The notes under the pieces: model-generated
What the model was told of the DNA's origin: nothing
The model's database searches: none
What the model saw: only the letters and a program-made list of their open reading frames with translations
DNA from: an uncultured Bacteroidota bacterium
Lineage (GTDB): Bacteria > Bacteroidota > Bacteroidia > Flavobacteriales > Flavobacteriaceae
Length of the DNA: 64,000 nucleotides
Direction: 5' to 3'
Assembly: GCA_902604715.1 (NCBI GenBank)
Contig: CACLAD010000003.1
Span: forward strand, 1-64,000
In this document: in pieces, positions 60,177 to 64,000 of the stretch
Layout of the letters: every line of letters begins with the position of its first letter
Position numbering within the stretch: the first letter of the stretch is position 1
Program-made: the position numbers and the translations under genes

Positions 60177-60833
60177 ATGGGTAATCAATTAATCGCTCCA
60201 TCAATACTTTCAGCAGATTTTTCAAATCTTAAGTCAGATATTCATATGGTTAACGAAAGTGAAGCTGATTGGTTTCATATTGACATTATGGATGGAGTAT
60301 TTGTACCAAATATATCTTTTGGGATGCCTGTGTTAAAGTCAATTAACGAATATGCTACTAAAACACTAGATGTTCATTTAATGATAGTAAACCCAGAAAA
60401 ATATATTAAAAAATTTGCAGAGCTTGGAAGTAATATCTTAACAATTCATTACGAAGTTTCAAAAGATACCCTTCAAGACTCTATTAAGGAAATTAAAAAA
60501 AATGGAATGAAGGCTGGTGTAGCAATAAATCCAGATACAGATACAAATGTATTGGAAAATCACATCAATAATATTGATTTGGTATGCGTAATGGGTGTTT
60601 TTCCAGGCTTTAGTGGGCAAAAGTTTATTGAGGCAACCTATGATAGATGTAAGCAGGTAAAAGAAATTATTACAAAACGAAATGCGAAAACACTAATTGA
60701 AATAGATGGTGGTGTAACTATTCATAATGCAAAAAAACTACTAGATAATGGAGCTGATGTATTAGTTTCTGGAAGTCATGTATTTAAGGCTGAAAATCCA
60801 AAAAAAATTATTTCAAAATTAAAGCATATCTAA
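60177..60833 (+). CDS. rpe: Ribulose-phosphate 3-epimerase
   Basis: IAPSILSADFSNL, FHIDIMDGVFVPNISFG, VMGVFPGFSGQKF. Confidence 0.96.
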   Translation: MGNQLIAPSILSADFSNLKSDIHMVNESEADWFHIDIMDGVFVPNISFGMPVLKSINEYATKTLDVHLMIVNPEKYIKKFAELGSNILTIHYEVSKDTLQDSIKEIKKNGMKAGVAINPDTDTNVLENHINNIDLVCVMGVFPGFSGQKFIEATYDRCKQVKEIITKRNAKTLIEIDGGVTIHNAKKLLDNGADVLVSGSHVFKAENPKKIISKLKHI

Positions 60834-60894
60834 CATTTATTTAAATAAGATTTAATATAAAAATAATAGACATCTTATTTAGATTACTGATTAA

Positions 60895-60929
60895 AATATC
60901 CGACATTTAATCGATAATATCCGACATTT
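60895..60929 (+). promoter_or_regulatory. Two direct 14-bp repeats AATATCCGACATTT, 21 bp apart, upstream of the Kelch-TM gene
   Basis: Copies at 60895-60908 and 60916-60929; core ATATCCGACAT is one mismatch from the dyad ATGTC-N-GACAT; followed by -7-like TATATTTG at 60943-60950. Confidence 0.65.
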
Positions 60930-60972
60930 TATTTTTTTTATATATATTTGAAGCCTGTAAAATTACCTAATC

Positions 60973-62442
60973 ATGTTAATCAGGTTAATAATATTATTAA
61001 TCATTTTTAATTCTAAATTAGTTTTTTCATTAAACAATAATGAAATAAACGGAAAATTTATTTATGATGTTGACATCGAAAAAAATGAATTATACGTATT
61101 TGATAATGAAATTTCATTAACAACTTATGATTTGAGTAACGATAGAGTAAAATCTAAGTACAAATTTGATGCATTTGTACCTGATTTTAATAATGCAACC
61201 TGGAATGGTTTTTATACAGGTGATTTCTCTTTATCAAAATCAGTTATGAATGGATTTATGGATAATCTGGTACTCAAGAAATCAGAAAATGAAAAATTCT
61301 ATATTTTTCATGATGGAGGAGGTCTTGTAATGAGCTTAAGTAATGGTAGACTCAAAAGATTGGATAACAGTTTTCCATTTATGAACAAGTTTTTGGGAGA
61401 TTTTATCCTTCATGATAAAAAAGTCTATCACTTTGGTGGATACGGATTATTTAGGACAAATAATGCCATGCTTAATTTTGATGAAAATAACACCAATCAG
61501 TGGGATGAAATTACTTTTCAAAATGAAATTCCTAATGAATTATCACTTGGCATCTCATCATTTAATTCTCTTTTGACAAAAGATAACTATTTTATTTTCG
61601 GAGGGAACAAATTTAATAATGGAAATAACTACAAAAATGAATCAATTTTGAAATTCAATTTTAAAAACTATTATTGGACAAAACTTGGAAATATTAATTT
61701 AGATCTTTCTAATGAATCCCTTATTCTTGGAAGCGGAAATTGGTTTTATGTTTTTGGAAAAGAGTTTTTCCATTTTATTGATATAGAAAAATCTTCAATT
61801 TACAAGTATAAATACAAACTAGGGTTTTCGCCAACAGACTTGAGTTCATTAGAATCATTTATCTCCTACAACAATACATTTGAAAATATCAACACTTTGG
61901 ACATTTCAGATGTTACACTAAATATTTTCAAAAACCATAACTCAAAATCAGAAACAGTAATTTTATCAAAATATAAGCTTGGTAATATAATTGATCTTGA
62001 TTCCATTTCAGAATTACCTCTTTTGAGATTTGAGCAATCAAGGAATCAGTTTTTTATACCAATGCTTATTGTTTTAATTATAATTATTATAAATCTTCTT
62101 TATGTTGGACTTAATAAAAAAACAGTATCTGAACCAAAAAAATTATTCTCCTTTGAAAATAATGAACTATTCTTCATGAGTATAAAAATTAATTTAGATA
62201 ATAATTCTTTGGAAATTATTAATATGCTGTTTAAAAACAATAGTATTACAAGTAATGAAATTGTTGCAAAACTTGTTGAAAATGGACTGTCTTATGACTA
62301 TGCATCAAAAGTTAAAAATAAAATTATCGAGTCCCTAAATGAAAAGTTTGAATTTATAACTTCATCATCTGAACCATTTATAAAGATTTCTAAAAGTTCT
62401 CAGGACAAAAGGATACAAATCTTAAGCCTAAATAATAAATAA
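60973..62442 (+). CDS. Signal peptide + Kelch/beta-propeller-like ectodomain + single TM + putative C-terminal winged-helix protein (candidate membrane-tethered regulator)
   Basis: Kelch-like VYHFGGYGLFRTNNAMLNFDENNTNQWDEI and YFIFGGNKFNN...ILKFNFKNYYWTKL; TM FIPMLIVLIIIIINLLYVGL; tail SLEIINMLFKNNSITSNEIVAKLVENGLSYDYASKVKNKIIESLNEKFEFI predicted helical/HTH-like. Confidence 0.65.
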   Translation: MLIRLIILLIIFNSKLVFSLNNNEINGKFIYDVDIEKNELYVFDNEISLTTYDLSNDRVKSKYKFDAFVPDFNNATWNGFYTGDFSLSKSVMNGFMDNLVLKKSENEKFYIFHDGGGLVMSLSNGRLKRLDNSFPFMNKFLGDFILHDKKVYHFGGYGLFRTNNAMLNFDENNTNQWDEITFQNEIPNELSLGISSFNSLLTKDNYFIFGGNKFNNGNNYKNESILKFNFKNYYWTKLGNINLDLSNESLILGSGNWFYVFGKEFFHFIDIEKSSIYKYKYKLGFSPTDLSSLESFISYNNTFENINTLDISDVTLNIFKNHNSKSETVILSKYKLGNIIDLDSISELPLLRFEQSRNQFFIPMLIVLIIIIINLLYVGLNKKTVSEPKKLFSFENNELFFMSIKINLDNNSLEIINMLFKNNSITSNEIVAKLVENGLSYDYASKVKNKIIESLNEKFEFITSSSEPFIKISKSSQDKRIQILSLNNK

Positions 62443-62445
62443 GTT

Positions 62446-63543
62446 TTATTTTTTCAGGATTTGTATTTTCTTATATTCAAAAAATAAATACCAAAATAAA
62501 CTGATAACAATATAAATTGTTGTTAGCTCTATAGAATTAAAATTTTGTTCGATTAAAAAAATCACAATACAATTAAACCAATTAATTGCAGTTAAAAAAA
62601 ATGAGGTTCTAAGATGTGACATCCCACTGTCCAGTAAGATGTGGTGCAGGTGATTTCTATCAGCAGCAAAAGGAGATATTTTTTTTGATATTCTAACTAG
62701 CATTACCCTAAGGGTGTCTAAAACAGGAATGGAAATCATTGATATTGCAATCACAGGAATATTTTCAAGCTTTATTGAAAATACATCAACTAAGTTTGAA
62801 GTTGAGGCACTTGTTATGTAAGTAATTAAATATGTTGCAAACCAAAAACCAATAAAGAGTGAACCGGCATCACCTACAAATAGTTTTTTACCTTTATGAA
62901 AGTTATATCTTATAAACATTGAGCTAGATCCAATTATAATAATAGCGACTGAAGTCAAAGTAAAAAATTCGTTTATATGATTAGTAAAAAGCATAGACGA
63001 GAAAAAAGAAATTGAAAAAATTGCTAAATAGCCATCAATTCCATCTGTTAAATTAATAGCATTCATTATCGATAAATAAACAAATGATGTAAAAATAAGG
63101 CCAGGAACAAAGCCAATATTATTTAACCCCAAGAACCCGTTTAAATTTTGAATTATCGGTAACGTCGAATTTGCATATAATAACATTAAAATCAAAAAAG
63201 TAAGTACTATATATTTATTAAAGGCAGAAATTTCAATAAAGTCATCAAAAAAACCTAGAATTGAGACTAAAATAGCTGTTGCAACAATTGGACTAAAATT
63301 TGAAAATTGAATAAAATCTAAATTATCTAAAATTAAGGCACTGACCATCATAACGGCAGCATAAACTACTCCACCACCCGTAAATACTGACCCTTTGTGT
63401 GCAGCTCTTGAGTTTACAGCCTTTATAAGATTATAACTCTTTGCGAACTGAATATATTTTCTAAAAATAAATCTTGACAGAAATACGGTTGCAACAAGTA
63501 ATCCTAAATAATAAACTAAAAAAAAAGGAAACTCTGAATTCAT
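62446..63543 (-). CDS. MraY/WecA-family undecaprenyl-phosphate glycosyl-1-phosphate transferase
   Basis: AHKGSVFTGGGVVYA, NAINLTDGIDGYLA, FVGDAGSLFIGFWFA, RNHLHHILLDSG. Confidence 0.93.
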   Translation of the reverse strand: MNSEFPFFLVYYLGLLVATVFLSRFIFRKYIQFAKSYNLIKAVNSRAAHKGSVFTGGGVVYAAVMMVSALILDNLDFIQFSNFSPIVATAILVSILGFFDDFIEISAFNKYIVLTFLILMLLYANSTLPIIQNLNGFLGLNNIGFVPGLIFTSFVYLSIMNAINLTDGIDGYLAIFSISFFSSMLFTNHINEFFTLTSVAIIIIGSSSMFIRYNFHKGKKLFVGDAGSLFIGFWFATYLITYITSASTSNLVDVFSIKLENIPVIAISMISIPVLDTLRVMLVRISKKISPFAADRNHLHHILLDSGMSHLRTSFFLTAINWFNCIVIFLIEQNFNSIELTTIYIVISLFWYLFFEYKKIQILKK

Positions 63544-63630
63544 AATTCAAATTTAATAATTTAAATAGTGTATATTATAATGTCCTTTAAATTCTTTAAT
63601 ATTTAAGATAATTATATAATAATTTAAAAT

Positions 63631-64000
63631 ATGATTTTTAATCTGTTTAAATCAAAACCAACTTTAAAAGAGCTCATTCCTGAGGGATTTGTTGATATTC
63701 ACTCTCATATTCTACCTGGAATTGATGACGGAGCTAAAAATATTGAGGATTCGATTAAATTAATTATGCAAATGAAGGAGCTAGGATTTGAAAAAATAAT
63801 TGGAACACCCCACACTTACCAAGGGTTATATAACAATTCTTCACAATCTATTAAAAAAGCTTATGTAAATTTAATGGATAATTTAAACAAAGAAATAAAC
63901 ATTGAATATGCGTCTGAATATTTGCTTGATAATAGTCTGATCAAGCGAGCACAGGATAAAGATATTCTTTGCTTAAAAGACAATTATGTTCTTGTAGAGA
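63631..64000 (+). CDS. CpsB/CapC-type PHP tyrosine-protein phosphatase, C-terminus beyond window
   Basis: Manual translation from ATG 63631: MIFNLFKSKPTLKELIPEGFVDIHSHILPGIDDGAKNIEDSIKLIMQMKELGFEKIIGTPHTYQG; open to the right edge, absent from ORF track. Confidence 0.88.
   Translation, partial: MIFNLFKSKPTLKELIPEGFVDIHSHILPGIDDGAKNIEDSIKLIMQMKELGFEKIIGTPHTYQGLYNNSSQSIKKAYVNLMDNLNKEINIEYASEYLLDNSLIKRAQDKDILCLKDNYVLVE

Follow-up and report, generated by a model that had tools for sequence, protein, structure and literature searches.

A candidate membrane-integrated transcription regulator with a Kelch-type ectodomain and a winged-helix tail adjoins a variable surface-polysaccharide locus in marine flavobacteria

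In the DNA of an uncultured marine flavobacterium, we describe the gene for a protein, here called KTM (Kelch-TM), in which a signal peptide, a Kelch-type ectodomain of approximately 337 residues, one transmembrane (TM) helix, and a cytoplasmic tail of approximately 109 residues follow one another. Computation shows this architecture, the fold of the protein, an operator-like repeat upstream of its gene, and the linkage of the gene to wecA. From these features, we infer that KTM senses the envelope, binds DNA, regulates its own gene, and controls a polysaccharide locus. Our preferred reading, to which we assign a probability of roughly 0.72, is that KTM is a membrane-integrated, envelope-sensing one-component transcription regulator that acts at its own promoter and at the polysaccharide locus; the regulator interpretation of an initial annotation of the same DNA is thereby partly supported. 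The regulation of making surface polysaccharide, as opposed to eating it, is poorly known in Bacteroidota, especially in uncultured ocean flavobacteria, and KTM represents a candidate regulator family that lies beyond the recognition of Pfam and NCBIfam and that comes with a predicted operator.

The ktm open reading frame, which starts with ATG and is intact, lies in the window (i.e., the whole stretch of 64,000 nucleotides analyzed here; Table 1). By hydropathy, residues 2-20 resemble a signal peptide and residues 360-378 form a strong TM helix, confirming the layout of the initial annotation, which had estimated an ectodomain of about 330 residues and a tail of about 110. Interpreted in the usual way, a signal peptide followed by a TM helix would put residues 21-357 outside and the tail inside. 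A search of PDB sequences with the full KTM protein returned zero matches. The layout exceeds chance, as the genus contains another 11 full-length orthologues, plus one fragment, with 53-86% identity. The sister records that carry names are single-cell or MAG assemblies of uncultured marine-type Bacteroidetes (AH-321-C13, AG-313-A15, and others); the genomes of the genus are 56-86% complete. The tail is the most conserved domain, with a mean pairwise identity among the orthologues of 0.78 compared to 0.60 for the ectodomain.

Table 1. Coordinates of KTM, its promoter elements, and the neighboring gene in the window
Feature	Position	Strand	Basis or remark
KTM gene, 489 aa (Kelch-type ectodomain, TM helix, winged-helix tail)	60973..62442	+	ORF, hydropathy
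Signal peptide-like N-terminus, residues 1-20	60973..61032	+	hydropathy, sequence
Extracytoplasmic Kelch-type propeller domain (predicted), residues 21-357	61033..62043	+	Pfam, Foldseek, alignment
Transmembrane helix, residues 358-380	62044..62112	+	hydropathy, model
Cytoplasmic winged-helix domain, OmpR topology (predicted), residues 392-489	62146..62439	+	AlphaFold2, Foldseek, profiles
Predicted DNA-recognition helix 3, residues 441-463	62293..62361	+	96% mean pairwise identity in genus
Wing beta-hairpin, residues 470-486, contains D478-x-R480	62380..62430	+	
Weaker third copy of operator-like repeat, AAATAATAGACATCTTATTTA	60861..60881	+	33 bp upstream of copy 1
Operator-like copy 1, AATATCCGACATTTAAT	60895..60911	+	conserved repeat
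Operator-like copy 2, AATATCCGACATTTTAT	60916..60932	+	21 bp after copy 1, at promoter -33 region
-7 promoter box TATATTTG (TAnnTTTG)	60943..60950	+	nearly invariant in 13 orthologues
WecA-like Glycos_transf_4 gene	62446..63543	-	convergent with KTM
Single GACATT upstream of wecA -7-like box	63579..63584	-	only partly conserved, status uncertain

We predicted the structure of the tail alone with AlphaFold2, using six relatives, and obtained a model with a pLDDT of 93.1 and a pTM of 0.84. Its elements follow the order beta-beta-beta-H-H-H-beta-beta, with three short strands, helices at tail positions 25-36, 42-51, and 56-78, and a beta-hairpin; for comparison, the topology of CadC is beta1-4, alpha1-3, beta5-7 (PMC5430869). 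The model thus predicts with high confidence that the tail is a winged helix with OmpR topology, and it contains the three helices that had been read from the sequence, together with a beta-hairpin wing. All of the best 50 Foldseek matches of the tail listed from the PDB are winged-helix regulators, mostly of the MarR and OmpR types, with probabilities of 0.95-1.00 yet weak E-values (0.012-0.058). Because these tail-only E-values are weak, our superfamily call relies on agreement among several methods. Searches of PDB sequences with tail profiles found HP1043 (2k4j; E 0.0014), DrrD (1kgs; E 0.0014), and AdcR (3tgn; E 0.003), the three together spanning E 0.0014-0.01 across searches. Among 396 Bacteroidota genomes, a tail profile retrieved the KTM family first, followed by nine proteins at E about 1e-5 to 1e-4, which we read as probable OmpR/PhoB response regulators from the sequences of their starts and ends. 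The D-x-R motif of the wing provides the only invariant columns across 38 divergent tails, which descend to 13% identity to the tail in the window, and MarR-type matches align a D-x-R at the equivalent place.

None of the Pfam and NCBIfam models covers the tail at curated cut-offs; in particular, Trans_reg_C was absent above its cut-off from the protein in the window, from 25 tails, and from 10 full proteins. At E values up to 10, Pfam found no Reg_prop, histidine kinase, LuxR, or AraC domain in KTM, in agreement with the initial annotation that the tail is neither of the LuxR nor of the AraC type. We discarded as noise the scattered, below-cut-off Pfam matches of single tails (Lipocalin, RGS_DHEX, and HTH_24), as well as matches of the tail profile to HIV gp120, which we ascribed to composition.

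The Kelch-like character ascribed earlier to the ectodomain was upheld. Its Pfam match, PF24681, has an E-value of 1.7e-7, which is below the curated cut-off of that model, while two clear homologues (L108 and L103) exceed curated Kelch cut-offs, and the best Foldseek matches of the ectodomain are all Kelch domains or propellers (best E 3e-7). When the entire protein was modeled with AlphaFold2, the ectodomain was mostly below pLDDT 70, with long stretches below 50, and the predicted propeller is therefore supported via fold match at low model confidence. Neither of the structural outcomes that would have counted against the initial annotation, a prediction lacking the propeller or one lacking the winged helix, was obtained. 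Five residues (R129, D131, S133, G156, and G158) are invariant across 25 divergent family members.

Upstream of the gene, we found a direct repeat, ATANCNGACATT, with a spacing of 21 bp in 13 of 13 genus orthologues. The flavobacterial -7 box, TAnnTTTG, occupies positions -12 to -5 (PMC9723704), which puts the two copies of the repeat near -54 (copy 1) and -33 (copy 2); in all 13, the distance between copy 2 and the TTTG within the box is 24-25 bp. Invariant columns make up 21 of 34 positions in the repeat versus 8 of 67 in the rest of the intergenic sequence (Fisher P 4e-7), and helix 3 is nearly invariant in those same proteins that have the conserved repeat. The strict repeat pattern occurs once per genome, always before KTM, in all 13 genomes with KTM, and was not found in the 8 other genomes of the genus. 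Since this pattern is confined to the KTM promoter, KTM likely autoregulates via the GACATT direct repeat, and of all candidate targets its own promoter has the best support at the DNA level. A site before a gene travels along with it, so this co-occurrence is no independent proof. Additional loose tandem matches in sister genomes carry 1-2 mismatches; two such matches (GTCAT...GACAT; G008:C23:22432-22457 and G011:C4:55331-55356) lie in sister genomes in which no KTM was found. By eye, no common operator was apparent upstream of KTM in other genera, and an Rfam search of positions 60700-61100 returned no element. A sigma-70 scan was uninformative for AT-rich DNA and Bacteroidota promoters. Among the eight genomes in which a cpsB-type gene is the neighbor, the single GACATT on the wecA side is exact in five; it is absent from the two clusters of the G012/G017 type. 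Given this partial conservation, we do not count it as a control site.

The initial annotation had WecA-like and CpsB/CapC-like genes following KTM immediately. The linkage holds, but wecA lies on the opposite strand, tail-to-tail with KTM at a distance of 3 bp, and the CpsB-like gene lies beyond it, so these genes do not follow KTM as an operon. The genus shares the gene order pnp-rpoD-rpe-KTM; wecA comes next, in convergent orientation, and is followed by a polysaccharide locus whose content varies (glycosyltransferases along with either CpsB/Wzc/Wza or SLBB-Wza/Wzz). We found a second, non-MraY Glycos_transf_4 (WecA-type) gene in 12 of 12 genomes with a full KTM versus 0 of 8 genomes without. 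At three sequenced junctions that lack KTM, the gene after rpe is either PorP/SprF-like, as read from its sequence (G002 and G014), or rmlB-like (G019). Together with the 12/12 and 0/8 counts, these junctions indicate that KTM and wecA are gained or lost jointly. KTM stands at the junction with a surface-polysaccharide locus that varies among genomes. The junction after rpe (window 60840-62442; L129, L130, and L131) also resembles an insertion hot spot, which holds, depending on the genome, the polysaccharide locus with KTM, PorP/SprF with a gliding-motility-type protein, or the rmlB-like gene.

Outside the genus, 7 of 22 genera have a PF00953 or PF02563 (WecA/Wza) gene no more than 12 kb from KTM, against a chance expectation of 0.97 (simulated P 2e-5), and in about two thirds of the 22 KTM lies away from such genes; the immediate neighbors are diverse in more distant genera. 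In genus g5, wecA is flanked by two KTM genes, one on the same strand and overlapping its stop codon and the other divergent and about 33 bp away. This cluster (L017:6408-14353) packs a NusG/UpxY-like gene, SLBB-Wza, Wzz, and wecA with the two KTM paralogues, which suggests a two-regulator module.

We hypothesized a mechanism in which the Kelch propeller would read a signal from the envelope, for which a glycan or a lipid-linked intermediate of the neighboring polysaccharide is the most plausible candidate, and in which this signal would alter KTM dimerization across the TM helix. The tails would then sit next to each other on the direct repeats in the manner of OmpR/PhoB domains, a form of tandem binding that suits repeats in helical phase. 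Binding at about -33/-54 would switch the KTM promoter; since the repeat replaces the -33 box, activation is somewhat likelier than repression. Through this site, and probably further weak sites, KTM would set the expression of the adjacent polysaccharide locus.

Winged helices also occur as protein-binding modules. KTM, which is tightly linked to wecA, could accordingly serve the polysaccharide machinery as a scaffold in the envelope or as a partner that binds its enzymes, and not bind DNA, yet we consider this quite improbable given that all of the fold and profile neighbors found are DNA-binding regulators, that helix 3 and the wing are the most conserved parts, and that the promoter of the gene carries a conserved direct repeat. 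Somewhat easier to entertain, although still unlikely, is that the tandem GACATT site is real and bound by another, unlinked regulator, with KTM regulating different targets or none found here: the site is seen only before KTM and is assigned to it by proximity alone. That the strict site occurs only once per genome points instead to a dedicated local regulator, helically phased direct repeats fit an OmpR-type domain, and direct repeats are predicted for SusR-like regulators as well (PMC3878776).

Some KTM members distantly resemble Kelch proteins of the YjhT/NanM type: 7 of 25 match the NCBIfam YjhT mutarotase model (best E 1.3e-4), and YjhT (2uvk) is listed among the fold matches of the ectodomain. 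An ectodomain that is mainly a sugar-mutarotase or sialate-epimerase enzyme rather than a sensor is nevertheless very unlikely, as these matches are far below family level, the protein in the window has no NCBIfam match, and the conserved tail and operator would be left unexplained. It is also improbable that transcription of KTM itself controls wecA, by convergent interference or antisense RNA. The 3-bp gap would favor such control, as would the overlap of the two reading frames by 11-20 bp in four sister genomes and a scan of positions 60800-63700 that found no terminator-like site; against it, small genomes often have convergent genes with closely spaced ends, and other genera have co-directional or divergent arrangements.

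As a putative envelope-sensing regulator, KTM resembles ToxR/CadC-like regulators, which combine a single TM helix, an extracytoplasmic sensor, and a cytoplasmic OmpR-type winged helix with no phosphotransfer domain (PMC5430869, PMC5936718), all of which KTM shares. The order is reversed: ToxR/CadC-like proteins have an N-terminal DNA-binding domain and a C-terminal sensor (PMC5936718), whereas the KTM sensor is N-terminal and its predicted DNA-binding domain C-terminal. KTM further differs in its Kelch-type sensor, a tail outside all Pfam models, and an invariant D-x-R wing that resembles the MarR wing. SusR-like regulators, which are phylum-specific, have a periplasmic sensor and a C-terminal cytoplasmic DNA-binding domain unlike that of other regulators; SusR acts in polysaccharide breakdown, with predicted direct repeats 67/77 bp apart (PMC3878776). 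KTM resembles this description of SusR in layout and in its predicted direct-repeat operator, but its repeats are 21 bp apart and its linkage is to polysaccharide synthesis.

The tail shares with OmpR/PhoB effector domains its fold topology, weak profile similarity, and a direct-repeat site at the promoter -33 region, but KTM has no receiver domain, is membrane-tethered, and carries the D-x-R wing motif. With the MarR family, the tail shares the best Foldseek E-values and a wing in which D-x-R precedes a strand; it lacks the MarR dimerization helices and has an OmpR-like N-terminal beta-sheet, and its candidate operator is a direct repeat. KTM also falls in the functional class of transmembrane transcription regulators, in which Bacteroidota are rich and which a survey describes by known DNA-binding domains (PMC10269533). 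Since the tail has no Pfam match at cut-off, that survey probably missed the KTM family, which suggests that surveys of such regulators miss those whose DNA-binding domain is outside Pfam.

Full-length KTM is present in 11 of 20 sister genomes, in addition to one fragment (G015). A KTM profile matched 13 of 237 genera sampled within the family and 37 of 396 Bacteroidota genomes; in about half of these the architecture is complete and extends to the tail. The architecture recurs in many Bacteroidota genera, including those of distant families. In the open-access literature on Kelch-type or C-terminal-DNA-binding membrane regulators, we found no description of the KTM family. Tentatively, and with some doubt, KTM may represent a hitherto unrecognized, phylum-wide inverted ToxR-type family that pairs a Kelch sensor with a cryptic DNA-binding domain. 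One large branch of this family would sense the state of the cell's own surface polysaccharide and, through autoregulation at a dedicated tandem operator, control how that polysaccharide is made. Several genomes (G024, G283, G323, and G445) carry two KTM copies that are adjacent or flank wecA. In G481 (L109:7562-12726), KTM has an esterase-GH16 gene on one side and a sulfatase gene on the other, a context that resembles polysaccharide degradation. A relative of 1220 amino acids (L122:8324-11986) contains two Kelch-matching regions and additional cytoplasmic sequence.
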